DNA of 64,000 bases from Megaustenia siamemsis. Taxonomy: Eukaryota > Mollusca > Gastropoda > Stylommatophora > Ariophantidae. The position numbers and the translations under genes were made by a program. The stretch's first letter is position 1. The number at the start of each line of letters is the position of its first letter. The notes below the pieces were generated by a model. The model made no database searches. It was not told the origin of the DNA and was given only the letters and a program-made list of their open reading frames with translations. Location: positions 11,287,821 to 11,351,820 of the forward strand of contig JAVIAB010000024.1 of NCBI GenBank assembly GCA_032433765.1. Direction: 5' to 3'. Below are positions 1 to 64,000 of this stretch, in pieces.

Positions 1-1288
1 AGTAGCCAACATCATAGCTAGCTAACTCGCTAACCATCGAACTAAGTAAGGAACTAAATTACAAAATAACTAACTAAATAACTAAGTAACTAAATAACTA
101 ACTTTCTACATGAATAACCAACTAAATAACTACGTAACTAAATATCTAAGTAACTATCATTCTAGCTAAAGAACTAATGAACTAACTTTCTAACTAAATA
201 ACTAAGTAACTCACTTTCTAACTAACTAAATAAGTAACTCACTTTCTAACTAACTAAATAAGTAACTCACTTTCTAACTAAATAACTAACTCACTTTCTA
301 AGTAACTCACTTTCTAACTAACTAAATAACTAAGTAACTCACTTTCTAACTAACTAAATAACTTAAGTAACTCACTTTATAACTAACTAAATAACTTAAG
401 TAACTCACTTTATAACTAAATAACTAAGTAACTCACTTTCTAACTAAATAACTAAGTAACTCACTTTCTAACTAAATAACTAAGTAACTCACTTTCTAAC
501 TAACTAAATAACTAAGTTTCTAATTGAATAACTAACTAAATAACTACGTAACTGAATAACTAACTAAATAACTAAGTAACTAACATTCTAGCTAAGTAAC
601 TAATTAGCTAACTTTCTAACTAAGTAACTAACTTTCAAACTAAATAACTAACTAAATAACTATGTAACTAACTTTCAAACTAAATAACTAACTTTCAAAC
701 TAAATAACTAACTTTCAAACTAAATAACTAACTAAATAACTAATTAACTAACTTTCTAACTAAATAACTAAATAACAAACTAAGTAACTCACTTTCTAAC
801 TAAGTAACTAAGTAACTAACTTTCTAACTAAATAACAAACTAAGTAACTCACTTTCTAAGTAAATAACTAAGTAACTAACTTTCTTACTAAATAACAAAA
901 TAACAAAATAACTAACTAACTTTCTAACTAAATAACTAAATAACAAACTAAGTAACTCACTTTCTAACTAAATAACTAAGTAACTAACTTTCTAACTAAA
1001 TAACTAAGTAACTAACTTTCTAACTAAATAACTAAGTAACTAACTTTCTAACTTTCTAACTAAATAACTAAATAACAAACTAAGTAACTCACTTTCTAAC
1101 TAAATAACTAAATAACTAACTAAATAACTAAGTAACTAACTTTCTAACTTTCTAACTTTCTAACTTTCTAACTAAGTAACTAAGTAACTAACTAAATAAC
1201 TAAATAACAAAGTAACTAAGTAACTAACTTTCTAACTAAATAACTAAGTAACTCACTTTCTTACTAAATAACTAAATAAATAACCAGA
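1..1288. repeat. CTAA-rich degenerate tandem array
   Basis: The whole stretch is built from short words such as ctaactaaataact, aagtaactcactttcta and actttctaact, repeated with many small length changes. The basic word is a tetranucleotide (ctaa/taac), overlaid by a looser period of about 30-40 bases in which actttc recurs. It runs to the left edge, so the array probably continues outside the window. Stop codons (taa) are dense, so no coding is possible. It ends near the word taaccagatt. Confidence 0.95.
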
Positions 1289-1935
1289 TTTTAACTAATT
1301 TCCTTAAGTAAGTGTAGTTGTTCTCACAATCATGTCACGTATAGACCTCATTACTTACTCCATTTGCTTTTAGCTCCGCGTTAATCTGTGAGCGCATCGA
1401 GATTTTGATTAGAAACTACAGCCAGAAACTGAGTTATGGTTCTTCCTTTCATTACTTGCTTACTTCTATATGCCGAGGGAGATGGTAAAACATAATTCCC
1501 GTTTTATTGATATCCACACTGAATGACATTGATGTCGCACGCTGTGTTTCTTTAGCTAGTCGTAAATTCATTCATTTTTTTTGTACGGAATCCGTTGCGG
1601 CTTCATGACTTGCGTGTTCGCTACTAGCAAAAATGACCCTTGTTCAGATCCTAGATTTTATTAAATCTGTCGCACCCACACATCTTCGTGGTCCCCACAG
1701 CCTCTTTAGCTTTTGTTAATGGTAAAATAGGTTATCTCTGGTAATTTGGAGCGGTCTGTCGGGCTACTGATGACACCATACTCCTCATATGGCTCTGGAG
1801 CATCCTAATATACAGACATAAATCAACTGATCTCGCCCTAGTATTAAAAGTTCATAGTGGAAAAGATGAAGCAGAGACAAGACACACAAAATATACAAGG
1901 TAATGTTGAGTTCAATAGAATAAAACCTAGAATGA
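1289..1935. other. Unassigned intergenic DNA
   Basis: I recognise no gene or repeat family in this stretch. There is no long open frame, no tandem structure and no similarity to the other repeats of the window that I could see by eye. Confidence 0.6.
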
Positions 1936-2014
1936 GTTCAAGAATAAACTATCTTGCACATGATAGAAACCAATGATAGAAAATGGAAGACAGGAAATGA
2001 TAAAAATAGGAATT

Positions 2015-2060
<46 letters not shown>

Positions 2061-2290
2061 ATAATAAATTTTAACAAAATGAAAAACATACTCGTATCAC
2101 GGCAAATAACATCAGCAATAAAAATACGAATAGCAGAATGCTGTATAGAATCAACATACCTTTATGATGCAGAAACATGGAGACTAAATAAGAAAACACA
2201 ACAGAGACTTAAAGCCTTTAACATGTGGATCTATATAAAATGGGGATAATTGGTTGGAAGGGAAAAAAAAGACTAACACAGAGAGTATGA
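1936..2290 (+). pseudogene. LINE-A ORF2 C-terminal fragment, frameshifted
   Basis: After the A-tract the frame reads FNKMKNILVSRQ, then YLYDAETWRLNKKTQQ and a WIYIKWG stretch. This is the same protein tail as the better copy at 48.5-49.0 kb (FNAMKNTLTTKQ, FLYDAETWTLDKKTEQ). Homology continues upstream of the A-tract: accaatgatagaaaatgg here matches accaatgatggaaaatgt there, but with frame changes and stops. The fragment stops near GWKGKKR, well before the GHV motif. It is a dead piece of the RT tail of an RTE-like non-LTR retrotransposon. No catalytic RT motif is present. Confidence 0.75.
2017..2057 (+). repeat. A41 homopolymer inside LINE-A ORF
   Basis: Forty-one consecutive A residues. In the intact LINE-A copy the corresponding place is ggtatggcaaaaagtaattt (AKSNFN). 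Here it reads ggaattgc, then A41, then tttataataaatttt. The tract therefore lies inside coding sequence, with LINE-A similarity on both sides, and is not the 3' tail of a retrotransposon. Confidence 0.85.
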
Positions 2291-3420
2291 ACAAGTAACA
2301 AACGGACAGTCAACTTTACTGTTGAATGTGTTGAAGAATGTACCCGTTTTTACAGAATTAAAAAAGATGAACATACAACTGTGGTGAAGCAAATAAATTA
2401 AAGGATAACGAAACAAAGTATAACGTTTCGACAACAGACCTACTGCAGATAGTTATGGCATGCTTTAACTTGCATCTAAATCATTGGAGCATCATCAATA
2501 TGGTCATAATGCACCTACTTAGCGATACAGTGTCAAAAAGTGTTGCCAATTAGAGACTAAAAAACGTAAGTAATGGGATGAGTATTGTCAGCAAAAGGGG
2601 AGCTAACTAAGAATAATTCCAGTGAAGGTGAGAGGCTTTCAGGCATGCCTGGATGGACAGCTCACGCATGTGTACAATGGAAATAGAAACATTGAACCGT
2701 AGGTAGAAAACAGGGACAGAAAATTGGACCATGTTTGTTCTGTTCATTTTCGGGGATATCCTGGGTATTATTCGGTGGTATTTGCATTCATTGACATTCA
2801 TGAACTTGTCAGCAGATCTGTCAAAAACCTAGTTTTCAAGGGCACCAGATATAGGAATTAACGAATACATGACGATTTTTTTTTTTTTACACATACCTAC
2901 GAATGATGCCATAAATTGTGACAAATTAAAAGACTTTTATTTAAGCGCATCATATCTAGCTCATATCACGTACCTTCTGTGCATAGTATGAAACCTAAAA
3001 TAAGATACGAGATACAAGTTTATAAACAAAAATGGTTCTTATTGCTGTCATCAATTGTTCAACTAGATGGTGAGCACCGGCGATAGCCTCTAGGGTGCTG
3101 AAATATTAGACCTAGCACTTCACACATTTTTACTGTACGATAAATGAGGACCTTTTTTTTTTTTGAGAAACTACCTCCAACTTGTCACTTTATTATTTGC
3201 TAAAAAAAATTGATGAAGCTACAACCATGTCAAGGTAATGAGGTAAGTCCGCGTCGTAGATGTTTTAATAAAGCTCACATTTTTTAAACTGACCGCATCT
3301 TCTACCTACAATTTCTTCTCCAAATATCCCTACTGCTTTGACCATGAAACCCTATTCTCGATTTTTGAAAAAATATCTTCGATTTTAAGAAAAGAAATGC
3401 AAAAGACTGGAGATAATACT
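2291..3420. other. Unassigned intergenic DNA
   Basis: About 1.1 kb with no recognised element. It holds two short T-runs (near 2878 and 3153). A 64-codon minus-strand open frame at 2607-2801 has no motif I know and no support from context. I see nothing else. Confidence 0.55.
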
Positions 3421-3436
3421 TTATCATTACATATAT

Positions 3437-5049
3437 CGTTACGTTCTTCTACCTTTCTGCTCTCTGTGGAGCATAGGTCTTCAACAAACCGTTTCCATGT
3501 CGTTCTGTTTCTTGCCATTCTTTTAAGATCTTTCCATGTGTTCCCCATCATCTTCATCTCTGCTTCTGTGTGTCTTCTCTAAGAATTCCTTGGTCCTCCT
3601 CTTTGTCTTTTCCCCTGGGGTTTCCAAAAAAGGGCCTGTTGTGTAACTCTCAGTTGGCTTCCGTAATGTGTGTCCTATCCAGCGCCATCTTCTTCGCTGT
3701 ATCTCTTTATCCACTATTATTTGACTGGTATATTCCCATAATTCTATGTTAGTGAATGTGTCCTGCCATTTCCATCCTTTTATTCTGCGTAAGCATCCAT
3801 TAATGAAAGTATGTATCTTCATGATTGTCAATTTTGTTGTTCTCCATGTTTCGCAGCCATATAATAGGACTGACTTAACATTGGATTTGAACATTTTTGT
3901 ATGTGTATTTAACCTAATTTCTCTGGACTTCCTTATGTTTCCCAGTGCAATGAAAACTCCCCTTGCTTTTGATATCCTTATTGTGGTATCATTTCTGTTC
4001 CTCCCTCTTTATCTATATTACTGCCCAGATATATGTAAGATTGTACGTATAGTAGAGGTATTACTCCTAATTTTATTTGGTTATTGCCAACTGCATTAGT
4101 TCTCATAATGTTGGTCTTATCTCTATTAATCTTCAGTCCTAGCTGTTGTGATCTGTCATTAAGTATGCTCATTTTATCCTGCATCTGTTGATGGCTGTGT
4201 GATAGGAGAGCTATGTCAGCAGCAAAGTCTAAATCATCAAATTGTTTGGTCAGTGACCACTGAATTCCATTTCTTTTGTTTTGAGTTATTTTCATAATCC
4301 AATCTATGGCAAGTAGAAAGAGAAATGGAGACAGAAGGCATCCCTGCCTTACTCCTGTTCTTATTTCAAATGCTTCTGTAATCTGTCCTTCATGCACCAC
4401 ACTACATTTTGTTCCTTCATACATTGTTTTTATCAGGTTAATAAACTTTATGGGGATTCCGTAATGACTCAGCAACTTCCAAAGCATTCCACTGTCTAAA
4501 CTATCAAATGCTTTTTCGTAATCTATGAATCCAATATAAAGTGAGGACAGTAGTTCTAAACTTTGTTCGGCTATTATACGTAGAGTAGTTATTTGATCAG
4601 CACATGAGCTGTTCTTCATAAAACCTGCTTGGTCATCTCTCAAATGTTTCTCTATGGCCTCTTTTAGTCTCGCCAGAATGATTCTGCCTAATATTTTTCC
4701 TGGCACTGATAGTAGCATAATTCTCATATAATTTGTGCACTCATGTGAACTCCCTCTCTTTGGTAGTTTGATCATATAACCTTCTTTCCATTCTTTAGGT
4801 ATTTCTTCCCTCTCCCAAATTTTATCTAATAGATTATGTAACATCTTGGTAGAGGTGTTAATCACTGCTATGATGGTTTCCGAAGGAATTTCATCTGGTC
4901 CTGTGGCTTTACCATTTTTAATAGCTTGATGACTTTCATTATTTCTTCTTTGCTTGGTTTTCCACAGTTAACGTGTAACTCTTCTTCTGCTGGTAGTATA
5001 TCTGGAGGGTTATTTGAGCCGGGTCTGTTCAAAAGTTCTTCATATTCTA
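3437..5049 (-). mobile_element. LINE-C (RTE-like) 5'-truncated copy
   Basis: A minus-strand non-LTR retrotransposon fragment holding most of the RT domain and the complete C-terminal tail. Reading 5' to 3' (descending coordinates): a connector with PAEEELHVNCGKPSKEE, a frameshift near 4930, AIKNGKATGPDEIPSE, the RT core (4865-3978), a frameshift near 4000, RISKARGVFIALGN, LLYGCETW, RRWRWIGHTLRKP, a frameshift near 3550, then NRTTWKRFVEDLCSTES. The near-identical 15-mers tatcattacatatat (3422-3436) and tatcgttacatatat (5050-5064) flank it and look like a TSD. It is 5' truncated and dead through at least three frameshifts and one catalytic substitution. Confidence 0.85.
3978..4865 (-). pseudogene. 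LINE-C reverse transcriptase domain, catalytic Asp lost
   Basis: A 295-codon open frame covering RT fingers, palm and part of the thumb. Visible motifs in order: WKEGYMIKLPKRGSS, the DDQAGFMKNSSCADQ block (RT2), YIGFIDYEKAFDSLD (motif A, with its Asp), RTGVRQGCLLSPFLFLLAI (motif B) and FAADIALLSH (motif C). Motif C should be FADD or YADD; the first Asp codon is gct (Ala), so one of the two metal-binding residues is missing. The protein could not polymerise even if expressed. The frame ends at a frameshift after EGGTE, and the homologous tail continues in another frame. There is no host promoter and the start Met is internal. Confidence 0.85.
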
Positions 5050-5184: not shown

Positions 5185-5325
5185 ACTTCATCAAATCTTC
5201 TTCATCTCAGTTCCCTGTGGAGCATCAGTACTTCAACAAACACTTTTCAAGCATGTCTGTTTCGTGTCATTATTTTAGAATCATTCTATGTCTTCTCCGT
5301 TCTCTTCACCCCTGTTTCCACCTGT
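5185..5325 (-). pseudogene. Second LINE-C 3' fragment
   Basis: The words ctgtggagcat, cttcaacaaac and gtctgtttcgtgtcattatttta align in order with the 3' end of LINE-C at 3440-3540 (ctgtggagcat, cttcaacaaacc, gttctgtttcttgccattctttta). This is the last part of the ORF tail of a second, more diverged copy. It ends directly at the 33-bp array that follows. Confidence 0.65.
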
Positions 5326-5962
5326 CTTCTACCAATATGTGTTGATATTCCGCTTTGTCTTCTACCAATATGTGTTGATATTCCGCTTTGTCTTCTCCCA
5401 ATATATGTTGATATTCCGCTTTGTCTTCTCCCAATATATGTTGATATTCCGCTTTGTCTTCTACCAATATGTGTTGATATTCCGCTTTGTCTTCTCCCAA
5501 TATATGTTGATATTCCGCTTTGTCTTCTCCAAGTATATTTTGATTTTCCTCTATTTATCTTATAACAGTATATTTTGATATTCCTCTTTATCTTCTCCAT
5601 GTATATTTTGATATTCCTCTTTATCTTCTCCATGTATATTTTGATATTCCTCTTTATCTTCTCCATGTATATTTAGATAGTCCTCCTTATCTTCTCCCAG
5701 TATATTTTGATATTTCTCTTTATCTTCTCCCAGTATATTTTGATATTCCTCTTTATCTTCTCCATGTATATTTAGATAGTCCTCCTTATCTTCTCCCAGT
5801 ATATTTTGATATTCCTCTTTATCTTCTCCCAGTATATTTTGATATTCCCTTTATCTTCTCCATGTATATTTAGATAGTCCTCCTTATCTTCTCCCAGTAT
5901 ATTTTGATATTCCTCTTTATCTTCTTCCAGTATATTTTCATATTCCTCTTTTATCTTCTTCA
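5326..5962. repeat. 33-bp minisatellite
   Basis: About 19 units with a period of 33 (accaatatgt recurs at 5331 and 5364). Early units read accaatatgtgttgatattc plus cgctttgtcttct. Later units diverge to a cagtatattttgatattcct type and an atgtatatttagatagtcct type, each ending in (t)atcttctcc. Since 33 is 11 codons, several frames stay open on both strands and give peptides such as GEDKAEYQHIL repeats. I do not consider them genes. Confidence 0.95.
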
Positions 5963-7395: not shown

Positions 7396-8985
7396 TAGAT
7401 TTATTACCACTAGCACACTTGGTGGCGATATTGGCAAACATTTTCCTCTACCACTAGAACATATGTTGGAGATATTGGCACACAGCCTCCTCTACCACTA
7501 GAACATATGTTGGAGATATTGGCACAGTCTCCTTTACCACTAGACCATATGTTGGAGATATTGGCACAGTCTCCTTTACCACTAGAACATATGTTGGAGA
7601 TATTGGCACAGTCTCCTCTACCACTAGAACATATGTTGGAGATATTGGCACACAGCCTCCTCTACCACTAGAACATATGTTGGAGATATTGGCACAGTCT
7701 CCTTTACCACTAGAACATATGTTGGAGATATTGGCACAGTCTCCTCTACCACTAGAACATATGTTGGAGATATTGGCACAGTCTCCTTTACCACTAGAAC
7801 ATATGTTGGAGATATTGGCACAGTCTCCTTTACCACTAGAACATATGTTGGAGATATTGGCACAGTCTCCTTTACCACTAGAACATATGTTGGAGATATT
7901 GGCACAGTCTCCTTTACCACTAGAACATATGTTGGAGATATTGGCACAGTCTCCTTTACCACTAGAACATATGTTGGAGATGTTGGCACACAGCCTCCTC
8001 TACCACTAGAACATATGTTGGAGATATTGGCACACAGCCTCCTCTACCACTAGAACATATGTTGGAGATATTGGCACACAGCCTCCTCTACCACTAGAAC
8101 ATATGTTGGAGATATTGGCACACAGCCTCCTCTACCACTAGACCATCTGTTGGAGATATTAGCACACAGCCTCCTCTACCACTAGACCATCTGTTGGAGA
8201 TATTAGCACACAGCCTCCTCTACCACTAGAACATCTGTTGGAGATATTAGCACACAGCCTCCTCTACCACTAGACCATCTGTTGGAGATATTAGCACACA
8301 GCCTCCTCTACCACTAGACCATCTGTTGGAGATATTAGCACACAGCCTCCTCTACCACTAAAAGAACTGTTGGAGATATTATCACACAGCCTCCTCTACC
8401 ACTAGAACATATGTTGGAGATATTGGCACACAGTCTCCTCTACCACTAGAACATATGTTGGAGATATTGGCACACAGTCTCCTCTACCACTAGAACATAT
8501 GTTGGAGATATTGGCACACAGTCTCCTCTACCACTAGAACATATGTTGGAGATATTGGCACACAGTCTCCTCTACCACTAGAACATATGTTGGAGATATT
8601 GGCACACAGCCTCCTCTACCACTAGAACATATGTTGGAGATATTGGCACACAGTCTCCTCTACCACTAGAACATATGTTGGAGATATTGGCACACAGTCT
8701 CCTCTACCACTAGAACATATGTTGGAGATATTGGCACACAGTCTCCTCTACCACTAGAACATATGTTGGAGATATTGGCACACAGTCTCCTCTACCACTA
8801 GAACATATGTTGGAGATATTATCACACAACCTCCTCTACCACTAGAACAGATGTTGGAGATATTGACACACAACCTCCTCTACCACTAGAACAGATGTTG
8901 GAGATATTATCACACAGCCTCCTCTACCACTAGAACAGATGTTGGAGATATTGACACACAACCTCCTCTACCACTGTGGTGGATA
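7396..8985. repeat. 42/44-bp minisatellite, about 37 units
   Basis: The unit is ccactagaacatatgttgga followed by gatattggcacacagtctcctcta. Two length classes exist. The 44-bp class has cacacagcctcc or cacacagtctcc; the 42-bp class has cacagtctcc (for example 7709 to 7751). The 42-bp class is concentrated at about 7520-7980 and, being 14 codons, keeps frames open there. The 44-bp class dominates after 8000. Further blocks carry gaccatctg and gaacagatg variants. The open frames here are by-products of the period. Confidence 0.95.
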
Positions 8986-10580: not shown

Positions 10581-10922
10581 AAAAAAATAAAGTACCCCCG
10601 TCACGCCAAGTGGCGTATAGGGAATATGGTGTTAGTGACCATACATTTTACAGACCTTCGGTACATTATTTTTTTTGGGTAATGTGGTCGGTATTACGTC
10701 CGTGCCGCTTTACTTTCCCAGAAAAAAAATCCGGTACCCATTAAAGGGTGGGTGAACCCGGAAGGTTTCTGTTTTTGAGATTGTGGTTCTGCCCTATGTG
10801 CCGTCTTCGGCTCGAAAGGACAATAGATAGATAGATATAACCCGGAAGCCGTCGGTTGGGATCGAACCCTACCTCTTGTCCTTTGAAGTCAAGTTCACTA
10901 ACCACTAAGCTATCGCGGCTCC
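10581..10922 (-). mobile_element. SINE-alpha, split by a beta insertion
   Basis: A tRNA-headed SINE on the minus strand. The head (right end) reads agccgcgatagcttagtggt with box A, and gggttcgatcccaaccga with box B. The body contains ggtaccggattttttttctg, a conserved agcggcacggacgtaatacc block and, at the 3' end, gccacttggcgtgacggggg followed by an A/T-rich tail. Inside it, at 10765-10838, sits a truncated beta element between two copies of aacccggaag. Other copies are at 19.65, 20.14, 53.33 and 59.80 kb. Confidence 0.85.
10765..10838 (+). mobile_element. Truncated beta retroposon nested in SINE-alpha, exact TSD
   Basis: Seventy-four bases from gtttctgtttttgagattgt to a (GATA)n tail (caatagatagatagatat). 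They are flanked by perfect 10-bp duplications aacccggaag at 10755-10764 and 10839-10848. Compared with the 269-bp copies at 16.6 and 50.7 kb, this copy keeps only the 3' end. This shows that the (GATA)n side is the 3' end and that beta moves by target-primed retrotransposition with 5' truncation. Confidence 0.9.
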
Positions 10923-11395: not shown

Positions 11396-11849
11396 TCTCC
11401 GTCAACAACTCTCACAACTACGATTTCAATCTTGAATTTAACTAACATCAGAAATCATCATCTACATCACAGTGAAAACATCAAAGATGAAACATCAAAC
11501 ATTCTGTAAATATTTTACACTAACACCAGTTTGATTATCCCTTGTTGACTTTCATGTCTGTTTCAAATCTTACTACATACCTCTTGTGGTAAACCTTGTT
11601 CCTATAAAGCAAATAGTTCTTACAACATATGTACTTTCACAAACATCGTCACTGAATGTTTAAACATGTTCAGAGTGGCATTCATATCGATGTTTCATCA
11701 ATAATTAATCAACAATTCAGCCAATCATCAAATAGCATATACACAGGACGGCATTGATTTTTTTATTAAAAAATTTTTTTTTTTAAAGCCAACATAATTG
11801 TTTCCTGGAAATGTATTCTTTCAACTTATCTCAATTAGCGACATTCTTA
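11396..11849. other. Unassigned AT-rich DNA
   Basis: No recognisable gene or repeat apart from A/T runs near 11757-11785. Confidence 0.5.
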
Positions 11850-11927
11850 CTTCGATTTACCTGATTGTTCTACTTTCATTTACAGACTTGTTTTATTTTG
11901 ATTTACCGACTTGTTTTACCTTGAATT
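11850..11927. repeat. 23-bp array, left block
   Basis: Three to four diverged units of the type gatttaccgacttgtttta. They are the same sequence as the large array starting at 12888 and were separated from it by the LINE-B insertion at 11928-12887. Confidence 0.85.
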
Positions 11928-12887
11928 CATCATCATCAACTACCGGGCCTAGTAGCATAGGTGATCATGTCTCTCCACAACTTTCGATCTCGGCAGCTAT
12001 TTATCATTTCTGTTGTTGACCTTCTGCCAAACCATTATCTTAAGCTGTCTGTTATTTTTTTCTCTTTGCTTCCCTCTATCTCTTCGTCCCTCAATTGTTC
12101 CAGTTGTTACAATATATTCCAGTTGTTCTCTTCTCATTACATGGCCAAAAAATGATGATTGTCTCTTCCTAATATTGGAAATTAGCTCTCTTTTTGCTTT
12201 GACCTCTCTCAGAACCTCTTCATTACTCTTCTTAGCTGCCCATGGTATTCTCAACATTCTTCTGTAAAACCACATTTCTACAGACTCCAGTGATTTTCTT
12301 GTCTGTTGTCATATTGTCCATGATTCGCATCCATATGTTAAGACTGGCTCTACGTAACATTTAAGAACTATTTTTCTTGTTTCTATTGTCAAAAATGCAT
12401 TGCATAGTATTTTCCTCATTTTTTGGAAAGCTGCTTTTGCCTGAGTCATTCTGCATCTCACCTCTTTTGTACATCTTCCGTCTGAGGTTAACAAAGTTCC
12501 CAAATATTTAAATTCATTTACCTGTTTTAATATTGTTCCACTTGTCTTTATTTTACACTGAGGTGATGCCTTTTTCTTTGTTTTTACCATTACCTCTATC
12601 TTTTTGCTATTAAGGCTGAGTTCTTTATTTTTGCTTTCTTTCACTATAATGTCCAACATTTCTTGTAACTCATTTTCACTCTTAGCGATTAAAACTGTAT
12701 CATCAGCATACATTAGATTATTTATATTATGACCTCCAATTGTTATTCCAGGCATGCCCCTTATGGATCTTAAAATAATCTCACTATAAATATTAAACAA
12801 ATCTGGTGACAGAACACAACCTTATCTAACACCCTGTTTTATTTGTTGAAACATTCCCAATTGGTTTCCAGTTCTTATGGCCGCTGA
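11928..12887 (-). mobile_element. LINE-B copy inserted in the 23-bp array
   Basis: A 5'-truncated LINE-B on the minus strand with a short (GAT)n 3' tail at its left edge. It covers the RT core from just before motif B to the C-terminus. The right boundary lies before gccgctgac; the 23-bp array then resumes. Frames are broken: the segment 12309-12800 carries the RT palm and the segment 11997-12275 the GHV tail, with a shift and stops in between. There is array on both sides, so this element is younger than the array. Confidence 0.85.
12309..12800 (-). pseudogene. LINE-B RT palm fragment with intact YADD
   Basis: 163 codons starting FNIYSEIILRSIRGMPG, then NNLMYADDTVLIAKSENEL (motif C intact), SLNSKKIEVMVKTKK, FKYLGTLLTSDGRCTKE and YGCESWTI. 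It is the palm-to-thumb part of a non-LTR reverse transcriptase. It lacks motif A and the endonuclease, so it is a remnant. The apparent start Met is internal to the element. Confidence 0.85.
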
Positions 12888-13692
12888 CTTTTATTTACCG
12901 ACTTGTTTTACTTTAATTTACCGACTTCTTTTACCGTAATATACCGACTTGTTTTACCGTAATATACCGACTTGTTTTATCTTAATATACCTACTTGTTT
13001 TACCTTAATTTACCGACTTGTTTTACCGTAATATACCGACTTGTTTTATCTTAATATACCGACTTGTTTTACCGTAATATACCGACTTGTTTTACCGTAA
13101 TTTACCGACTTGTTTTACCGTAATATGCCGACTTGTTTTATCTTAATATACCGACTTGTTTTACCGTAATATACCGACTTGTTTTACCTTAATATACCGA
13201 CTTGTTTTACCGTAATATACCGACTTGTTTTACCTTAATTTACCGACTTGTTTTACCTTAATTTACCGACTTGCTTTACCTTAATTTACCGACTTGTTTT
13301 ACCTTAATTTACCGACTTGTTTTACCTTAATTTACCGACTTGTTTTACCTTAATTTACCGACTTGTTTTACCTTAATATACCGACTTGTTTTACCTTAAT
13401 ATACCGACTTGTTTTACCTTAATATACCGACTTGTTTTACCTTAATTTACCGACTTGTTTTACCTTAATTTACCGACTTGTTTTACCTTAATTTACCGAC
13501 TTGTTTTACCTTAATATACCGACTTGTTTTACCTTAATATACCGACTTGTTTTACCTTAATTTACCGACTTGTTTTACCTTAATTTACCGACTTGTTTTA
13601 CCTTAATTTACCGACTTGTTTTACCTTAATTTACCGACCTGTTTTACTTTAATTTACCAACTTGTTGATTAACCGACTTGTTTTACTTTGAT
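12888..13692. repeat. 23-bp minisatellite, about 35 units
   Basis: The unit is cgacttgttttaccttaatt plus tac, with variants accgtaatatac and atcttaatatac. Variants form runs: the first third is rich in ccgtaatatac, the rest in ccttaatttac. It is the continuation of the block at 11850 and is interrupted again by SINE-gamma at 13693. Confidence 0.95.
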
Positions 13693-13970
13693 CATGAGCC
13701 TCAGTGGCTGAGTGGTTAGTGTGCTTGCTTCCTTACCAGGTTTCGGGTTCGAACCCAACCAGTGGTGGAATTTTTTTTTAACGACAAGGATCCGGGGTTC
13801 ACCCAGCCTCTAACAATGGGTACCGGAGAATGTTCTGGGAAGTTAAGACGGTGATTAAGCGTGATACCGACCACATTAGCCAAATATATCCCGTGGTTAT
13901 AGAAAAATATGGTCACTAGCACCATATTCCCCATACTCCTAGCAAGGCGTAGAGAGAATCTTTAATTTAC
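13693..13970 (+). mobile_element. SINE-gamma inserted in the 23-bp array
   Basis: The head reads gcctcagtggctgagtggtt (box A) and gggttcgaacccaaccag (box B), like a tRNA. The body shares ggtaccgg, gataccgaccacatt and ggtcactagcaccatattcc with SINE-alpha, so the two families have related bodies and different heads. It is flanked by tttactttgat at 13682-13692 and 13971-13981. Because these words also belong to the array, the TSD is suggestive only. Confidence 0.85.
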
Positions 13971-14015
13971 TTTACTTTGATTTTCCAACTTGATTTACCG
14001 ACTTCTTTTGACCTC
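13971..14015. repeat. 23-bp array, right block
   Basis: Two diverged units (tttactttgattttccaact, then gatttaccgacttc) resume directly after SINE-gamma. They show that the SINE entered the array. Confidence 0.75.
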
Positions 14016-14274
14016 TAATTAAAAAGACAATGTTTTTTTGTTTTCCTCATCGAATATTCCTCACAAGCGTTTGATTACATTTCCATATTTTTGTTTTATT
14101 TGAGTCTTTAATATCTGCAATTAATAATAATGAATGAACTAATTCACAAGAAGGGAAAGCTGACTCATAATGCAAATGTTATCATTTGCTATTCTAGAAG
14201 GAAATAACTCTAGAGACAAAACGGACACTCTACAACAGAATCCCCTCCCAACGTTGTGCTATCATTGTATGTAA

Positions 14275-14648
14275 AGGTAAATGTAAAGTACGAGACTTGA
14301 ACCGGCGAGACTTGAACCGACGAGACTTGAACCGGCGAGACTTGAACCGGCGTCTTAGCACGCGAGTTTCCACCTATATGTGCTTGGTCGCCTCTCCAGA
14401 AATGTTCGGAGATTTCTGTAGAGTGTCGCCTCAAGCATCGAAACTCAGATGCGAAGCGACATTTCTCACCTTCCCAAGGTAATACCCTGGTACCCATTTC
14501 TGCCAACGGCTGGGTCGACCGTGGGGGTATTTTTTTTTTCCAACCACGAGTACAATTCACACTGCTCCCAGCGGGAATCGAACACAGGTTGTCCGAACGT
14601 CGGTAGTTCAGTCGGGTGGTTTTCCCAACTCGGCTACCGAGGCCCCCT
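14275..14648 (-). mobile_element. SINE-delta with internal 15-bp expansion
   Basis: Minus-strand copy. The head at the right end reads ggtagccgagttgggaaaac (box A) and gtgttcgattcccgctggg (box B), resembling a class II tRNA (Leu or Ser type) with a long variable arm. The body holds gtcgacccagcc, gaaatgggtacc, tttcgatgcttgaggcgaca and cgtgctaagacgccggttca. At its 3' side the word gagacttgaaccggc occurs four times in tandem (about 14291-14350), where the copy at 27.06 kb has it once. Other copies: 27062 and 46285. Confidence 0.85.
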
Positions 14649-15365: not shown

Positions 15366-15905
15366 CCGTTCACGGAACAGATTTCTGGATAAACAATGAG
15401 AAGAAATCTTGTAAACCCTGAGGGAAACGACTGGTAAACCCTGAGGAAAAATCTGGTAAGCTCTGATGAAAAAACCGGTAAACGGTGAGGAAAAAATCAG
15501 GTAAACTCTGATGACAAAACCGGTAAACACTATGGAAAAATCTGGGAAACTCTGAGAAAAAATCCGGTAAATCCAGAGGAAGAATCAGATAAACCCAGAA
15601 GAAAAATCTGGTAAACCCTGAGGAAAAATCCGGTAAACCGAGAGGAAGAATCAGATAAACCCAGAAGAAAAATTCGGTAAACCCAGAGGAAGAATCCGGT
15701 AAACCCTGAGGAAAAATCCGGTAAACCCAGAGGAAAAATCCGGTAAACCCAGAGGAAAAATCCGGTAAATCCTGAGGAAAAATCCGGTAAACCCAGAGGA
15801 AAAATCTGATAAACCCAGAGGAAGAATCCGACAAACCCAGAGGAAGAATCCGATAAACCCTGAGGAAGAATCCGACAAACCCTGAGGAAGAATCCGATAA
15901 ACCCT
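15366..15905. repeat. 22-bp minisatellite
   Basis: About 24 units of the type ggtaaacccagaggaaaaat plus cc (period 22, for example 15721 to 15743). Three units make 66 bases, so all minus-strand frames read a 22-residue repeat (GFTGFFLWVYRIF and similar). The long minus-strand frames of 99-179 codons are artefacts of this. The right boundary merges with LINE-I sequence at ataaaccctg. Confidence 0.95.
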
Positions 15906-16078
15906 GCAACTTGGGAAAAGATAACTGCAGACTGCAATCTTTGCAAACACACTCTAAAGCTCCAACTCAAACAAGTAGCGGGCAGATTCATAGAAAAACA
16001 GAATACACGTCCAAAGAAAGAAAAAGTAACATATCCTAGGGGCGCTGCAAGATTTATGGTAGACTATAATTGACGGCG
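15893..16078 (+). pseudogene. LINE-I C-terminal fragment
   Basis: Plus-strand frame reads INPATWEKITADCNLCKHTL, KLQLKQVAGRFIEKQ and RPKKEK, then runs out at ctataattgacggcggaatc. The minus-strand copy at 52.43-52.84 kb has the same order (AAP, SDSNLWKHTLKLQLKQGTDRF). This is the C-terminal end of an RTE-like ORF of the INP-W type. A 22-bp array adjoins its left end and a large array its right end. Confidence 0.7.
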
Positions 16079-22289: not shown

Positions 22290-22317
22290 GAAGGGGGGGG
22301 GGGGAGGGAGGGGGGGC
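22290..22317 (+). repeat. G-rich homopolymer expansion inside LINE-D ORF
   Basis: A run of G with two interrupting A residues (ggggggggggggagggaggg). The ORF around it reads KKLAGTDW and then ADSYILKRLYVGRVR in a shifted frame. An unexpanded element would read directly from W-G to A-D-T. The run has four or more G-tracts and could form a G-quadruplex. Confidence 0.85.
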
Positions 22318-24487: not shown

Positions 24488-24496
24488 TTTACCATC

Positions 24497-24674
24497 TTTT
24501 AAGACGCACGAAACTCGCTTTCTGGTATTTATGCTTCAAGTTAATGTGCAACTTTTAAGACGCACGAAACTCGCTTTCTGGGATTTATGCTTCAAGTTAA
24601 TGTGCAACTTTTAAGACGCACGAAACTCGCTTTCTGGGATTTATGCTTCAAGTTAATGTGCAACTTTTAAGACC
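24497..24674. repeat. 56-bp tandem repeat, three copies
   Basis: The unit begins aagacgcacgaaactcgctt and ends aatgtgcaactttt; copies start at 24501, 24557 and 24613. The copies are nearly identical (one t/g difference). It abuts the 5' edge of the LINE-B fragment. Confidence 0.9.
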
Positions 24675-36732: not shown

Positions 36733-36834
36733 GGGCGTCCGTGGGTTTATAGAAGACGGAAGTGTGGAGGCTGGAGGTACCAAGGGAGAGGACCAGATCA
36801 AGAAAAATGACGGACGGGGTAGAGATATAAGATG

Positions 36835-46794: not shown

Positions 46795-48055
46795 TAATCA
46801 TTTATTGTTCACATTAACATCTGTGATGCAAACGTTTCTTGTTCACACAGACAGCTGTGATGTAATTATTTCTTGTTTACACACACACAGCTGCAATGTA
46901 CTAATTTCTTTTTCACACTAACAGCGACGGTTTAATCATTTCTTGTTCACACAGACAGCTGCGTTGTAATCATTTCTTGTTCACACACAAAGCTGCGATG
47001 TAATAATTTCTTGTTAACACAAACATGTGCGATATAATCATTTATTTTTAACACTCACAGCTGCGATGTAAGAGTTTCTTGTTCACACATACAGCTGCGT
47101 GGTAATCATTTCTTGTTCACACACACAGCTGCGATGTAGTCATTTATTTTTCACACTCACAGCTGCGGTGTAAGAGTTTCTTGTTGACACACACATCTGC
47201 GATGTAATCATTTCTCGTTCAGACACACAGCTGCGATGTAATCATTTCTTATTCACGCACACAGCTACAAATAGCTGCAATGTGCTTATTTCTTGTTCAC
47301 GCTGACAGCTATGGGTTAATCATGTCTTGTTCACACAAACAGTTGGGATATAAATATTTCTTTTTGACGCAAACAGTTGCGTTGTAATTATTTCCTGTTA
47401 AAGCAAACAGTTGCGTTGTAATCATGTCCTGTTAACGCAAACAGTTGCGTTGTAATTATTTCCTGTTAACGCAAACAGTTGCGTTGTAATTATTTCCTGT
47501 TAACGCAAACAGCTGCGTTGTAATCATTTCCTGTTAACGCAAACAGCTGCGTTGTAATTATTTCCTGTTAACGCAAACAGTTGCGTTGTAATCATTCCCT
47601 GTTAACGCAAACAGCTGCGTTGTAATCATTTCCTGTTCACGCAAACAGCTGCGTTGTAATCATTTCCTGTTTACGCAAACAGCTGCGTTGTAATCATTTC
47701 CTGTTCACGCAAACAGCTGCGTTGTAATCATTTCCTGTTCACGCAAACAGCTGCGTTGTAATCATTTCTTTTTGACGCAAATAGCCGCGATGTAATCATT
47801 TCTTGTTCACACATACATCTGCGTTGTAATCATTTCTTGTTCACACACACAGCTGCGTTGTAATCATTTCTTGTTCACGCAAACAGCTGCGTTGTAATCA
47901 TTTCTTGTTCACGCAAACAGCTGCGATGTAATCATTTCTTGTCCACACACACACACAGCTGCGATATAATCAGTTCTTGTTCACACACACAGCTGCGATA
48001 TAATCAGTTCTTGTTCACACACACAGCTGCGATATAATCAGTTCTTGTTCACATC
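46795..48055. repeat. 34-bp minisatellite, about 37 units
   Basis: The unit is aatcatttcttgttcacaca plus cacagctgcgatgt. A homogeneous central block (47380-47760) has the subtype cctgttaacgcaaacagttg or cagctgcgttgtaatcattt. The outer units are more variable, as expected for an array growing from the middle. Confidence 0.95.
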
Positions 48056-49378: not shown

Positions 49379-49793
49379 CTTTAAACATTGACAAATCCTA
49401 AACATTGACAAATCCTAAACATTGACAAATCCTAAACATTGACAAATGCTAAACATTGACAAATCCTAAACATTGACAAATCCTAAACATTGACAAATCC
49501 TTAACATTGACAAATCCTTAACATTGACAAATCCTAAACATTGACAAATCCTAAACATTGACAAATCCTAAACATTGACAAATCCTAAACATTGACAAAT
49601 CCTAAACATTGACAAATCCTAAACATTGACAAATCCTAAACATTGACAAATCCTAAACATTGACAAATCCTTAACATTGACAAATCCTTAACATTGACAA
49701 ATCCTAAACATTGACAAATCCTAAACATTGACAAATCCTTAACATTGACAAATCCTAAACATTGACAAATCCTTAACATTGACAAATCCTTAA
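49379..49793. repeat. 17-bp minisatellite, about 24 units
   Basis: Unit acaaatcctaaacattg, highly uniform; variants only at ccttaac and gctaaac. Low divergence suggests recent expansion. Confidence 0.95.
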
Positions 49794-50657: not shown

Positions 50658-50710
50658 CGGTGATGTAGAATTTGAACAAGTTGTCACAGTAATTCGATGT
50701 AGTAGTAGAT

Positions 50711-50979
50711 CTATCTATCTATCGTCCTTTCGAGCCGAAGATGGCGCATAGGGCAGAACCACAATCTCAAAAACAGAAACCTTGCGTGCCAAAATGGCAC
50801 ATATTGCAGAGATCACTGCCCTAAAATCTATGGTCTGTTTCCATAACAATACTTTTTACAATGACAGCTTTTCAAGCCATCAATCAACCTCCTTAGTCGC
50901 CTCTTACGACATGCCTGGAAAATCACAGTGTCACTATTCTTTACTTCCCACATAATGAGGCCCCGGTAACACACGGGGG
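50711..50979 (-). mobile_element. Beta retroposon, second full copy with exact TSD
   Basis: 269 bases, the same length as the 16.6-kb copy and about 93% identical by eye. Minus-strand orientation: 5' end cccccgtgtgttaccggggc, 3' tail (GATA)n. Perfect 10-bp TSD agtagtagat at 50701-50710 and 50980-50989. Confidence 0.9.
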
Positions 50980-51744: not shown

Positions 51745-51975
51745 AACAAGATCTTAGGCAAGGATGTTTACTATCACCAAATTTATTTTGAATGTATAGT
51801 GAGCTTATACTAAAACACATACATACTGATAAAGGGTACACTATGGAATTTCAGTCAATCATAATATAAACAAACTGAGATGCACATATGACACAATCAT
51901 AATATAAACAAACTGAGATGCACATATGACACAATCATAATCACTAAGAGTGAATACGAGTTAATCAACATCATT
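51745..51975 (+). pseudogene. LINE-B RT palm remnant with nascent 38-bp duplication
   Basis: Reads VRQGCLLSPNLF-like sequence (ggcaaggatgtttactatca), then MYSELILKHIHT and, further on, CTYDTIIITKSEYEL where other copies have MYADDTVLIAKSENEL. The motif C Asp pair is deleted. The 38-base segment starting aatcataatataaacaaact occurs twice in a row (51857 and 51895). Confidence 0.75.
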
Positions 51976-55469: not shown

Positions 55470-56165
55470 TAGTTTAGTTTAGTCGACGGATCATTCTAAT
55501 TACACATAGGATGCGGCCATAAGTACTCAGATCTATTCACCAGTATCTACCTCAGTGTGTGGAGACTGATAACTCCATGTTGTGTTTTCAATTATATTTG
55601 CCTGTGTCTCCCCGGGTCGTGTTCTTTTCTGACATCACCAAATTTGAGCTTATGTTCGTTCAGTCTGAACATGGTTGCAGATTTATAATCATTGATTAAA
55701 TCGTTAGCGCGTCCTGCCTCCCTGATGGCATTCAGAACGTCACCCCAGTCCATGACACGTCCGCCATACACGCTAGCTGTTCCAGCCAGGCTGTCAGCTC
55801 GTTCGTATTCTCTCACAGCGGAGCATCCATAAATGAAGATGCAACAGATCCTAATCACAGTTCGTCTTTAGAGGCATAAATCAGTGCGTTCGCGTCCAAC
55901 CTTCTTCGATATGCTTGAGCCACTCATCGAGTCACTTAGAAAGCACACTTGAGGTTTTGTTTCCAGCCAGACCATCACTTTAGTTACCGCCATGAGCTCC
56001 ATGGTCAAACTACTGGTAGTTATCGCACTGCTCTCCTCCTTTACTGTTCATTCTCTGACCTGGACCCCGAAAGCCCACGAGCTCGGACTGTGCCAAACGA
56101 CGGATCCATCTGAGTAGATGATTGTCGCTTTTTGAGGTGAATTATTGTAGATCAAAACTTATACC
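55470..56165 (-). pseudogene. LINE-F RNase H region
   Basis: Minus strand: EVXVLIYNNSPQKATIIYSD with GSVVWHSPSSWAFGVQVRE (first Asp), SSLTMELMAVTKVMVWLE (Glu), QVCFLSDSMSG (Asp), a decayed stretch, then EYERADSLAGTASVYGGRVM (last block, RAD) and DWGDVLNAIREAGRANDLI. X marks a stop. Order and residues parallel LINE-E, but it is a different family. A 25-bp array begins exactly upstream of EVLIYN. Confidence 0.8.
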
Positions 56166-58060
56166 TCGACCATAGATTAAAGCCTGCACCTCCAATATAC
56201 ATCAAAGCCTACACCTCCAATATACAACAAAGTCTACACATCCAATATACAACAAAGTCTACACCTCCAATATACAACAAAGTCTACACTTCCAATATAC
56301 AACAAAGTCTACACCTCCAATATACAACAAAGTCTACACCTCCAATATACAACAAAGTCTACACCTCCAATATACATCAAAGCCTACACCTCCAATATAC
56401 ATCAAAGCCTACACCTCCAATATACAACAAAGTCTACACCTCCACTATACAACAAAGTCTACACCTCCACTATACAACAAAGTCTACACCTCCAATATAC
56501 AACAAAGTCTACACCTCCAATATACAACAAAGTCTACACCTCCAATATACAACAAAGTCTACACTTCCAATATACAACAAAGTCTACACCTCCACTATAC
56601 ATCAAAGCCTGTACCTCCAATATAGAACAAAGTCTATAACTCCACCATACATCAAAGCCTGCACCTCCAATATAGATCACAGTCTACACTTCCACCATAC
56701 ATGGCAAATGGCAACCCTCCACCATACATCAAAGCCTACACCTCCAATATACATCAAAGCCTACACTTCCACCATACATCAATGGCAACCCTCCACCATA
56801 CAGCAAAGCCTACACCTCCACTATACAACAATGTCTACACTTCCACTATACAACAATGTCTACACTTCCACCATACATCAATGGCAACCCTCCACCATAC
56901 ATCAAAGCCTACACCTCCAGTATACAACAAAGTCTACACTTTCAACATACATCAATGGCAACCCTCCACCATACATCAAAGGCAACCCTCCACCATACAT
57001 CAAAGCCTACACCTCCACTATACATCAAAGCCTACACCTCCACTATACAACAAAGTCTACACCTCCAACATACATCAAAATCAAAGCCTACAACTCCACT
57101 ATACAACAAAGTCTACACCTCCACTATACATCAAAGACTACACCTCCACTATACAACAAAGTCTACACCTCCAACATACATCAAAATCAAAGCCTAAAAC
57201 TCCACTATACAACAAAGTCTACACCTCCAACATACATCAAAATCAAAGCCTACAACTCCACTATACAAAAAAGTCTACACTTCCACCATACATCAAAGGC
57301 AACCCTCCACCATACATCAAATACTACTCCTCCACCATACATCAAAGGCAACCCTCCACCATACATCAAAGACTACTCCTCCACCATACATCAAAGGCAA
57401 CCCTCCACCATACATCAAAGGCAACCCTCCACCATACATCAAAGACTACACCTTCACCATACATCAAAGACTACACTTCCACCATACATCAAAGACTACA
57501 CCTCCACCATACATCAAAGACTACACTTCCACCATACATCAAAGACTACACTTCCACCATACATCAAAGACTACACCTCCACCATACATCAAAGACTACA
57601 CTTCCACCATACATCAAAGACTACACTTCCACCATACATCAAAGACTACACCTCCGCCATTCATCAAAGGCAACCCTCCACCATACATCAAAGACTATTC
57701 CTCCACCATACATCAAAGACTACACCTCCGCCATTTATCAAAGGCAACCCTCCACCATACATCAAAGACTACACCTCCGCCATACATCAAAGACTACACC
57801 TCGGCCATTCATCAAAGGCAACCCTCCACCATACATCAAAGACTATTCCTCCACCATACATCAAAGGCAACACTCCACCATACATCAAAGACTATTCCTC
57901 CACCATACATCAAAGACTACACCTCCACTATACATCAAAGGCAAACCTCCACCATACATTAAAGACTACTCCTCCACCATACATCAAAGCCTACACCTCC
58001 ACCATACATCAAAACTTAAAACTCCACCATAATTCAAAGCTTGCTCCTCCATCATGGATC
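56160..58060. repeat. 25-bp minisatellite, about 76 units
   Basis: Left part: aacaaagtctacacctccaa plus tatac (period 25). Right part is dominated by accatacatcaaagactaca or catacatcaaaggcaaccct with period 24-25. No unit contains a stop in any plus-strand frame, so frames of 443 and 453 codons run through it. Their amino acid content (Pro, Thr, His, Tyr, Lys, Ser repeats shifting every unit) is purely a consequence of the repeat. I do not annotate a protein. Confidence 0.95.
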
Positions 58061-58899
58061 AAAACCTAAATGTTTGTGCACAATTCATATTGGAGACACT
58101 GACATCTAAACTTAACCGTCACACATTTCACAGAGAAGTTATCGACAGGGATTATGATGTACTTCCATTTGAGGTCTTGGAATAATCACTGACACCTTCA
58201 GTAATATGATTACATAATTAGTAGATGCATCATTTAATACATTACCTCGCGGCTGTTTGTTTTCATCTCAAAGTGCCATTTTAGTCATAATCGTTTAATT
58301 TGCAAAGTATTTATGGATTAGTAAGTCCTGAGCTTAATACATTCCACTCATGCTTAACATTGATATTGTATGCAAGTGGTTTCAGTTTGTGACACAACAT
58401 ACACAACATAACATTTTTGTTAAAATCAATATCCGTGTATGAACGATATTTGAGTTGTTTAGTTGATTTTTGTAACAAGAACATCACACATTGGCAAATC
58501 TGAGAGCTTTTGCAGGACAACATCCAATCTTTAACCACAAAAGTTGTTGTATTTTAACAAACATTCTCTTCTAATTACTTGGAATGTCTGAGAGAAGAAA
58601 CATATTTATGGTTACCTTCCTAGAAAAAACGCTAATGAGGGAATCAACTAAGGTATCAGAGACAAGCAAGCGTGTCATCACATTTTATGAACATATGGAG
58701 AAGCAAGACTCTCGTGGAAACAACTGCTATAGAGAACAATGATTGGATAAGGCGATAAATGAAATACATAAAATAGATAAGCTTGGAGGAATTGAATTAG
58801 ATGTATTCATTCATTGATTTTCCTTTCTGGACGTAGATGGCATATAGAGCGGAAGCCATAGTTTTCCACGATTGACGAATCTGCTGCTAGTTTGTGTAG
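58061..58899. other. Unassigned spacer
   Basis: No recognised gene or repeat over about 800 bases. Confidence 0.45.
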
Positions 58900-60414: not shown

Positions 60415-60915
60415 TCTGATGTTTCTCTGGACAGTTAAAAAGACCAACAAGGACATTCTCAACGAGGACATTCTCAACAAGGACATTCTCAACAAGGACA
60501 TTCTCAACGAGGACATTCTCAACAAGGGCATTCTCAACAAGGACATTCTCAACAAGGACATTCTCAACAAGGACATTCTCAACAAGGACATTCTCAACAA
60601 GGACATTCTCAACAAGGACATTCTCAACAAGGACATTCTCAACAAGGACATTCTCAACAAGGACATTCTCAACAAGGACATTCTGAAAGAGGTCAACACA
60701 AAAAGAGAGCTCATAATAAAAAAATCAGAATGGACAATGTTCTGACACCTCATGAAAAGATGAAAGTTTGAGTACTTGTTTTCAACTGGCAAAATACAGG
60801 GAAAGAGAGATCATGGACGACAAAGAGAGAAGATACTAGATATATTGCTGTACGTCACGATGCTGAAACAAGAGAATTGATATGATCTGTGAAATGTGAT
60901 GAGCTGTGGATAGAA
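60415..60915 (+). pseudogene. LINE-B fragment with in-frame 15-bp expansion
   Basis: Reads FLWTVKKTNKDIL, then 16 copies of a five-residue unit (NKDIL), then KEVNTKRELIIKKSEWTMF. Other copies have PWTDRKTNEEVLKEANTKRE with no insert. After the array come FSTGKIQGKRDHGRQREKIL-like sequence and a decayed region. The remainder of the 3' end appears at 61322-61378 (FWKDIIDSADRYGT, stop and GAT tail). Confidence 0.88.
60446..60685 (+). repeat. 15-bp in-frame minisatellite in LINE-B
   Basis: Sixteen units of aacaaggacattctc, almost identical (aacgag twice, gggc once). Fifteen bases is five codons, so the ORF stays open. The boundary words accaacaaggacattctc and gacattctgaaagaggtc are LINE-B sequence, fixing the founder segment precisely. 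Confidence 0.97.
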
Positions 60916-61378: not shown

Positions 61379-61497
61379 GCGTTCCCCCATATAAGAGCTG
61401 GTTTTGTGCTTTTAACACTGCAAATTGAATAGGAGAGCATTGGCGACCCGGGCTTTGCATTCCCTCATCTGCGATCAGAACACGTGGTAGATATCAT

Positions 61498-62130
61498 TAT
61501 TAATACTTTAGTTCCAGCTTGTTACATATAGATCTAGCTACTCATATCAATATTAATACTTTAGTTCCAGCATGTTACATATAGATCTAGCTACTCATAT
61601 CAATATTAATACTTTAGTTCCAGCTTGTTACATATAGATCTAGCTACTCATATCATTATTAATACTTTAGTTCCAGCTTGTTACATATAGATCTAGCTAT
61701 TCATATCAATGTTAATACTTTAGTTCCAGCTTGTTACATATATGTCTAGCTACTCATATCAATATTAATACTTTAGTTCCAGCTTGTTACATTTAGATCT
61801 AGCTATTCATATCAATATTAGTACTTTAGTTCCAGCTTGTTACATATAGATCTAGCTATTCATATCAATGTTAATACTTTAGTTCCAGCTTGTTACATAT
61901 ATGTCTAGCTATTCATATCAATATTAATACTTTAGTTCCAGCTTGTTACATATAGATCTAGCTATTCATATCAATATTAATACTTTAGTTCCAGCTTGTT
62001 ACATATAGATCTAGCTACTCATATCAATATTAGTACTTTAGTTCCAGCTTGTTACATATAGATCTAGCTACTCATATCAATATTAGTACTTTAGTTCCAG
62101 CTTGTTACATATAGGTCTAGTTACTTATAT
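61498..62130. repeat. 53-bp minisatellite, about 12 units
   Basis: Unit ttaatactttagttccagct, tgttacatatagatctagct and actcatatcaata (period 53). Variants gttcatg, gctattc and atatgtc are mixed. Unrelated in sequence to the other 53-bp array at 36.8-38.3 kb. Confidence 0.95.
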
Positions 62131-62224
62131 CAACATGTGCATTCTTTTAACTTACAATGTAATAGAATGGCTTGATGTTGCTTTCGTTGTCTCTGTCCTA
62201 TTGATATAAAGATTCTAATTTTAA

Positions 62225-62428: not shown

Positions 62429-62478
62429 GATGACTTCCAAAGGGAGTGTACTCTGTGTTATCCGTTGAGAGAGGGATG

Positions 62479-62697: not shown

Positions 62698-62815
62698 CAG
62701 CTATGAGTTGATGACAGCTTTTAACTCTGCTGCTTTCAGGCGCCTAGTCTCCATCAACTATGAGTCGCTCACAGCTTCCAACTCTGCTGCTGTCAGGCGC
62801 CTTGCCTGCTAGCTA
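62695..62815. repeat. 60-bp tandem duplication
   Basis: atcagctatgagttgatgac, agcttttaactctgctgctt and tcaggcgcctagtct are followed by a second copy catcaactatgagtcgctca, cagcttccaactctgctgct and gtcaggcgcctt. Two copies only, about 85% alike. Confidence 0.8.
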
Positions 62816-63094
62816 TAATCAATAAGTTGAACTTATTTTGTATAAAAACATATAATGTATTGAGTTTCAATATTTTGAAATCTGCCACTACATTCTATTA
62901 TTCTGTTCTACTTTTTGCAAGTATGCATCGCAGGCTAAATCCAATGATATTTTTTCTATAAAGGACACTTTTTGTGGCTTGGTAAATATTAGATAGACAT
63001 TTTAGTTTTTGTTGTTTTTTTTTTTTCACTGTGTCTCTGAGATTACGAAAATAGGTAGGCAACCTGCTAAAGCCGTGCCTTGTGTAATAAATTG

Positions 63095-63460
63095 TTATCA
63101 ATTAATGTTAGAAAACGTGCCCTAAAGTGCTAGATAGAATCTGTTCTACTATATGGAAGTGAGTCATGGGCGATACGTAAGACATCGCAAAGAACATTAG
63201 AAGCAGCTGAGGTGTGATTTATAAGAAAAATGTTACGAATTCCAAGGACAGGAAAGATTACTAATGAAGAATATTTAAACCGAGCTGGAGAATCCAGAAA
63301 TATTAGAATCATAGGAAAGTGACAATCTACGTTTATTGGACATATAAAGCGAAAAGACAGCATTGGGAAATACTATATCAACGGACAGAATGAACGGAAA
63401 AAGAGGGGCAAAGGTAAACCAAGAGAAAAAAATATTGAACAGTTTATTCAAATAGCATAA
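63095..63460 (+). pseudogene. RTE-like LINE C-terminal fragment
   Basis: Reads ESVLLYGSESWAIRKTSQRT, FIRKMLRIPRTGKITNEEYL, NRAGESRNIRIIGK, a stop, QSTFIGHIKRKDSIGKYYIN and GQNERKKRGKGKPREKNIEQ. Same architecture as LINE-B but a distinct family. Two in-frame stops. Confidence 0.8.
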
Positions 63461-63559
63461 TAAAAGATTCTTCCTCCTCTTCCTCTTGTCTCTTTTCACT
63501 GATACCTAAAAGGTGTCGTGGTTTATATCATTTGTCGTTGTTGAGCTGCTCGAATTGTC

Positions 63560-64000
63560 TGAATTAGTGATTTTCCTTGTTGTTACATGTCTCTGTCACT
63601 GCATCTATCCATCTTCTTCTGGGTCTTCTTCTTGGTCTTTTTCCATGCATTCTCGAGAAGAACGCCCTTGATGGTGATTGGTGAGGATTCATTCTGACCA
63701 GGTGGCCAAACCATTTAAGTTGTTGTTGTTCTATATATTCTTGGCAGGGTTTTGTTCCTACCATTTTTCTTATGGTTTCATTTGGTATTCTATCTCTTCT
63801 TGTGTTGTTTGTTACTTTTCTCAAGCACCGCATCTCACATGTATTTATCTTTCTTAATTGTGATTTAGAAAGGGTCTATGTTTGACTTTCATAGCACAAA
63901 GTTGGTATGAAAATGCTATTTATCATTTGTTGTTTAGCTTGCATAGAAATGTTTGGATGTCTTAGCAATGGTGAAAGCAATAAAAGATTACCGACTGAAA
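63560..64000 (-). pseudogene. LINE-H C-terminal part, runs off the window
   Basis: Minus strand, from the right edge: SPLLRHPNISMQAKQQMINS, IFIPTLCYESQT then a stop where W is expected, TLSKSQLRKINTCEMRCLRK, NETIRKMVGTKPCQEYIEQQ, QLKWFGHLVRMNPHQSPSRA and GKRPRRRPRRRWIDAVTETC, followed by NNKENH and a stop. Only one stop in over 140 codons, so it is relatively young. The RT core, if present, lies beyond 64000. Confidence 0.82.

Follow-up and report, generated by a model that had tools for sequence, protein, structure and literature searches.

Tandem arrays with retroelement-derived units in a 64-kb mollusc-like genomic window are no commoner than its mobile-DNA share predicts

The window analyzed here is the whole stretch of 64,000 nucleotides (64 kb) from contig JAVIAB010000024.1, without a single N. 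Judged by its sequence, it is retroelement-rich, mollusc-like animal DNA. The best organism-named database matches of its reverse-transcriptase open reading frames (ORFs) are to molluscs (Elysia, Bradybaena, Plakobranchus). RVT_1, the reverse transcriptase domain of long interspersed nuclear elements (LINEs; retrotransposons without long terminal repeats, or non-LTR), is present in six out of ten scanned ORFs, one of the six being below the curated cut-off, and a self-comparison reveals several families of interspersed repeats. ARAGORN and Rfam at gathering threshold gave no matches in the window. The region also carries many tandem arrays, for which dead retroelements had been proposed to act as minisatellite nurseries. 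Part of that proposal stands: the sequence comparisons support an origin from broken retroelements for about ten of the arrays here, in several of them through a test at the protein level or against array-free paralogs, but these elements do not appear to have given rise to arrays more than other DNA.

Tandem Repeats Finder (TRF) returned 55 rows, whose overlaps were merged by hand into 32 arrays, or 33 array rows if the CTACTA array is split around a 272-bp repeat inside it. With this repeat excluded, the arrays amount to 16,371 bases (16.4 of 64 kb), and 47,629 of the 64,000 bases are array-free. Twelve arrays or runs had been named as retroelement-derived, among them two in a Penelope-like element (PLE-like) ORF and one in a short interspersed nuclear element (SINE-like) repeat. 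The original prediction gave these cases without coordinates; they were paired with arrays by unit length, and the pairing is our own:

36830-38272, minus strand: 53-bp array in the PLE-like reverse transcriptase ORF (TRF, 27.2 copies, 98%; translation)
36657-36733, minus strand: 36-bp duplication in the PLE-like ORF (TRF, 2.1 copies, 100%; translation)
51856-51941, plus strand: 38-bp duplication over the YADD-region codons of a LINE (TRF, 2.3 copies, 100%; protein alignment)
60445-60684, plus strand: 15-bp array of NKDIL codons of a LINE (collapsed array, alignment)
25870-26583, minus strand: 59-bp array (LINE-G) at the C-terminal end of a LINE ORF (peptide match)
56151-58068, minus strand: 25-bp array (LINE-F), codons just before the RNase H of a LINE (alignment of P0027 over the first unit)
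5325-5959, minus strand: 33-bp array (LINE-C), unit like a segment of a neighbouring LINE copy (paralog test)
2017-2057, no strand assigned to the array, LINE on the plus strand: A41 run inside a LINE fragment (LINE-A; TRF)
22293-22316, plus strand: G-rich run in the LINE-D ORF (seen by eye, no TRF row)
14291-14352, no strand assigned: 15-bp array from a SINE-like repeat (SINE-delta; array-free paralogs)
16077-18240, minus strand: 28-bp CTACTA array, broken by the 272-bp repeat at 16591-16862 (paralog tests)
15390-15906, minus strand: 22-bp array (LINE-I in the original prediction) beside an interspersed repeat (origin from the repeat weakly supported)

In 11 out of 12 named cases the unit resembles the element where the array sits, at varying strength; for the 22-bp array the support is weak. 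For the protein-coding cases, library proteins were aligned across each array, and arrays were also collapsed to one unit, after which the spanning high-scoring segment pairs (HSPs) were counted. At the DNA level, the unit was compared with its place in a paralog; targets were hand-picked, 1000 single-base shuffles were used (p = 0.001 being the floor), and p-values are uncorrected for multiple tests. Six of the 14 shuffle tests gave p above 0.02. The automatic collapsed-array test alone found element homology over the unit in 5 out of 33 rows, including a 12-bp row at 63612 that is not counted among the element-derived units. Three of the 11 supported cases (53-bp, 36-bp and the G-run) were judged by eye only.

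The clearest cases are the 38-bp and 15-bp NKDIL units, which repeat the element's own codons, and the SINE 15-mer. The 38-bp unit encodes HNINKLRCTYDTI, and both copies align to residues 74-89 of P0061, the altered YADD region included. When collapsed, this row has 12 library matches, from one side only, and at the DNA level two paralogs give p = 0.001 for the unit at the colinear position. The NKDIL array sits in the element's TNxxIL segment, with library matches flanking both sides, and its two ends pass into element sequence, with TNKDIL at the left end (E 6e-6) and NKDILKEVNTKRELI at the right end (E 2e-18). As many as 89 HSPs span this row once it is collapsed to one unit, and the DNA test gave p = 0.003, 0.003 and 0.028 in three paralogs. 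The LINE copies compared for these two units have no TRF array at the corresponding places. The SINE 15-mer is single-copy in two paralogs that lack the array (near 27.06-27.39 and 46.28-46.62 kb), which demonstrates for this unit that element copies without the array exist.

The other LINE cases are more varied. The peptide of the 59-bp array scores 69 against the other copy at 49.95-50.1 kb (shuffle maximum 36 in 1000 shuffles), with 21 of the 28 aligned residues lying within the array; the DNA test of this unit is weak (p = 0.037). The first 25-bp unit aligns to P0027 directly before its RNase H (EV*VLIY to EVQALIF) within a match of E 6e-27, while the next unit reads EVQALIY and alone reaches only E = 0.49. 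Collapsing this row gave 11 HSPs from one side and none from both, and DNA-level support was not found in a comparison with a second RNase H copy (p = 0.20). For the 33-bp unit, p = 0.002 was obtained at the colinear place of the paralog at 3540-3700, and the left flank of the array (5196-5318) matches 3445-3566. With the A41 run reduced to a single base, three library HSPs pass through it (P0152 being the best, with E 1.2e-8); uncollapsed, P0152 matches the right flank only. A poly(A) tail of the adjoining LINE is ruled out, as library matches cross the run. Both A41 and the G-run are homopolymer-like and not minisatellites. A 56-bp array at 24496-24673, which directly abuts the limit of LINE protein homology, was considered and rejected as LINE-derived, as its unit shows no evidence of LINE sequence.

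The PLE-like ORF (35834-38530) carries the motifs GVAMGTKMGPSYA, YIDD and KPTDAH, which we take to be Penelope-like (Penelope-type reverse transcriptase and GIY-YIG nuclease) and on which the PLE label rests. No homologues were found in Pfam (three pieces searched), the PDB sequences (two pieces) or the protein collection (one piece); the motifs look conserved despite this lack of a database match. By eye, the 53-bp unit reads DDISRFIDYIGNF.KSIKITS, in a frame that carries on into both flanks, and the 36-bp unit appears as YLLYTSSHPSHC twice, between KPTDAHC and RDSISYSH. Outside recognizable coding sequence, the CTACTA unit matches the colinear position in the paralogs at 48.2 kb and at 52.4 kb (p = 0.001 for both), and its parent would be an unclassified interspersed repeat, a candidate LINE at most. 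The 22-bp unit shares TAAACCCTG with a paralog at 48.4 kb (p = 0.03), compared with p = 0.43 at 52.6 kb.

Whether such arrays exceed expectation is a separate matter. For the junction test, the arrays were removed and the remaining 47,629 bases were annotated by protein matches, the PLE-like stretch and interspersed self-repeats. The mobile share of this array-free sequence is 38.5% for protein matches plus PLE, 54.4% for all layers and 60.5% if gaps of up to 300 are filled. Of 31 junctions, 10 are flanked by mobile DNA on both sides (16.0 expected, P = 0.99), and 19 touch it on one side or both (17.7 expected, P = 0.39). A 32-junction version gives 10 against 16.6 expected and 20 against 18.3 (P = 0.34), respectively. 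No element is detectable at 12 of the 31 junctions, including those of the large arrays 7405-8975, 46795-48053, 49382-49790 and 61491-62133. Element-derived units, from a list set by hand on the basis of translations, alignments and paralog tests, account for 12 out of 33 rows, against an expectation of 12.7-20 (the probability of 12 or more being 0.66-0.999). Among merged arrays the figure is 11 of 31; for arrays with a period of 9 or more it is 10 of 28, and 7 of 22 if they must also be at least 100 bp long; leaving out the weak 22-bp case gives 10 of 31. The count lies below expectation in all five subsets at 38.5%, 54.4% and 60.5%, and the element-derived share of array bases is 47% (42-45% in the other subsets). 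The excess over chance that had been claimed is not confirmed: as far as one window can test, arrays in mobile DNA are no commoner here than the mobile share predicts, although a nursery role would call for more. The unit-origin counts are below expectation and the count of junctions touching mobile DNA on at least one side is within its noise, which for this one window is the outcome that the original prediction itself had named as speaking against it. At the start of the window, a degenerate CTAA-rich array (18-1284) also has a junction without detectable mobile DNA.

The explanation that we favor, with a probability of roughly 75%, is a generic process of tandem duplication, frequent and blind to sequence identity, that acts on whatever DNA is present. 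In this view, some 15-60 bases would first be copied in tandem, probably when short direct repeats bordering them slip or exchange unequally, and further rounds of the same process would lengthen the array; elements would also insert into existing arrays, and some elements carry simple repeats at their termini. With roughly half of the DNA consisting of dead mobile elements, it would follow that about one array in three carries an element-derived unit. Two exact duplications within elements end in a partial extra copy, of 5 bp (CAGTG) for the 36-bp unit and 10 bp for the 38-bp unit. Among random segments drawn from the whole window, arrays included, 5 or more bp occur in 1.8% and 10 or more in 0.6%. 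These remainders appear to fit the two published birth models (PMC3389668; Haber and Louis as cited in PMC6947457), one in which non-contiguous repeats slip and leave the last unit incomplete, and one in which flanking repeats of 5-10 bp mediate the duplication. The unit lengths of 53, 59, 38 and 25 bp are no multiples of three and do not suggest selection on the ORF.

Insertion into existing arrays is seen in one further feature in addition to the CTACTA array:

11847-14020, no strand assigned: 23-bp array holding a LINE fragment and a SINE-like element (array parts 11847-11924 and 12893-13666, remnants to 14020)

The same 23-bp unit flanks both sides of the LINE fragment (~11930-12886), which rules out the array as LINE offspring. 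The SINE-like element (~13692-13960) lies further along within the array, between remnants at 13668-13692 and 13989-14020 that score above the shuffle maxima; no remnants were found at 11700-11846 or 14100-14240. TTTACTTTGAT is present on both sides of this element but resembles the array unit, so there is no clean target-site duplication. Between 13690 and 13964 the element has look-alikes of what we presume to be tRNA-type A and B boxes, and ARAGORN found no tRNA in it. The 272-bp repeat within the CTACTA array is 94% identical to 50709-50979. Copies of its family (16591-16862 and 50709-50979, both long, and 10759-10837, short) begin with a CTAT run, and the two long copies have CTA/TAG triplets on both flanks, which suggests a preference of the family for CTA/TAG-triplet sites. 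Because they hold insertions, at least these two arrays look older than the elements inserted in them, a point that was absent from the original prediction.

Several observations weigh against sequence-blind duplication as we describe it. With only 33 rows, a modest enrichment or depletion remains compatible with the counts, and the incomplete library of transposable elements (TEs) makes the fractions lower bounds on both sides of the comparison. The microhomology count comes from two clean cases of 11 arrays: the partial copy of the SINE 15-mer is 2 bp only, and for the remaining eight arrays the longest exact run spans only part of the array and leaves no clean remainder. According to Ahmed and Liang (PMC3389668), the postulated mechanisms cover only 6% of human TE-derived arrays, so that slippage as the mechanism is here what we infer; that duplication followed element death is likewise our inference. 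Finally, 9 out of 31 junctions are mobile on one side only, compared with 1.6 expected (reached in none of 3000 draws), and with gaps filled the figures are 7 against 1.2 and 7 against 0.9. This excess counts against our explanation because sequence-blind placement alone does not predict it.

One alternative is that the link between arrays and elements lies mainly at element edges, where arrays would be created or captured as elements insert into them, through tails of simple repeats and through the repair of truncated ends; besides the one-sided junctions, the elements within the 23-bp and CTACTA arrays and the AT, GAT and AG runs adjoining element ends agree with it. The protein layer alone, though, yields just 3 one-sided junctions against 0.9 expected (P = 0.07). 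The library lacks most of the untranslated ends of elements, so that interior arrays may pass for edge arrays, as is likely for the 59-bp array, and we suspect that the excess is partly due to this incompleteness. By eye, the nine junctions are a mixture of causes, among them simple repeats where an element ends, elements that sit in an array, and arrays where the annotated ORF stops. We consider this alternative improbable, and just as doubtful is the related idea that retroelement edges in this genome favor the formation or survival of tandem arrays, much as though element ends set off tandem duplication when they are inserted, truncated or repaired.

That retroelement ORFs are the preferred birth places of minisatellites in this genome, as originally proposed, draws on the ten or so arrays whose units come from elements, including two within a single PLE-like ORF. 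With unit-origin counts under the mobile share in every subset, junction counts not above noise and large arrays among those without a detectable element, it appears decidedly unlikely. That some arrays already stood in the element consensus and moved with the element, as PMC3389668 reports for LTR12 and L1PA, is very improbable here: the SINE 15-mer has array-free paralogs, and in a comparison of 28 arrays with the rest of the window (window copies only, four short rows, A41, AT, GAT and 63612, being omitted) 20 had no match and 8 had some, with array-to-array matches only for a 23-bp pair and neighbouring 19-bp repeats and the remainder being single units, the inserted repeat, an A-run and a short partial match.

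Tandem repeats and minisatellites born in transposons are an already established kind. In human, 7,276 out of 31,472 minisatellites and satellites (23%) are transposon-derived in a genome that is at least 44% transposon, according to Ahmed and Liang 2012 (PMC3389668). As in the window, units are copied from within mobile elements and grown by local duplication, and their share likewise lies below the transposon fraction, but the human count is genome-wide and concerns Alu, endogenous retroviruses (ERV) and L1, compared with mollusc-like LINE, PLE-like and SINE-like sequence in one window here. Reviews name LINE ORFs, SINEs and LTRs as sources of tandem repeats (PMC9659126, PMC6947457). Satellites of Lathyrus sativus (PMC7004042) also begin as short arrays within retrotransposons with occasional expansion, although in dispersed LTR elements rather than as single arrays in LINE and PLE-like copies. 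Work on the limpet Patella caerulea (PMC11121367) describes PcH-sat, a gastropod tandem repeat with a SINE-like, Nin-SINE-related unit; it is a 179-bp satellite making up about 10% of the limpet genome, unlike the four-copy 15-mer here. Abrupt satellite-transposon transitions in molluscs are ascribed, in PMC5139131, to insertion or recombination of short arrays with mobile elements, but these concern satellite DNA families, with one of two groups Helitron-type, and not private short arrays. A literature search of limited scope, which is no proof of absence, found no published arrays inside a Penelope-like ORF.

The window keeps apart two claims that are easily merged: arrays with transposon units are real, and their excess is another matter. 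Within a transposon-rich region, the number of such arrays alone says nothing about transposons being special. Such arrays are nonetheless instructive, as the codons of the parent orient the birth of the array, and the array-rich window could be used as a compact set of examples of how minisatellites are born, in which the array-free paralogs represent the state before.

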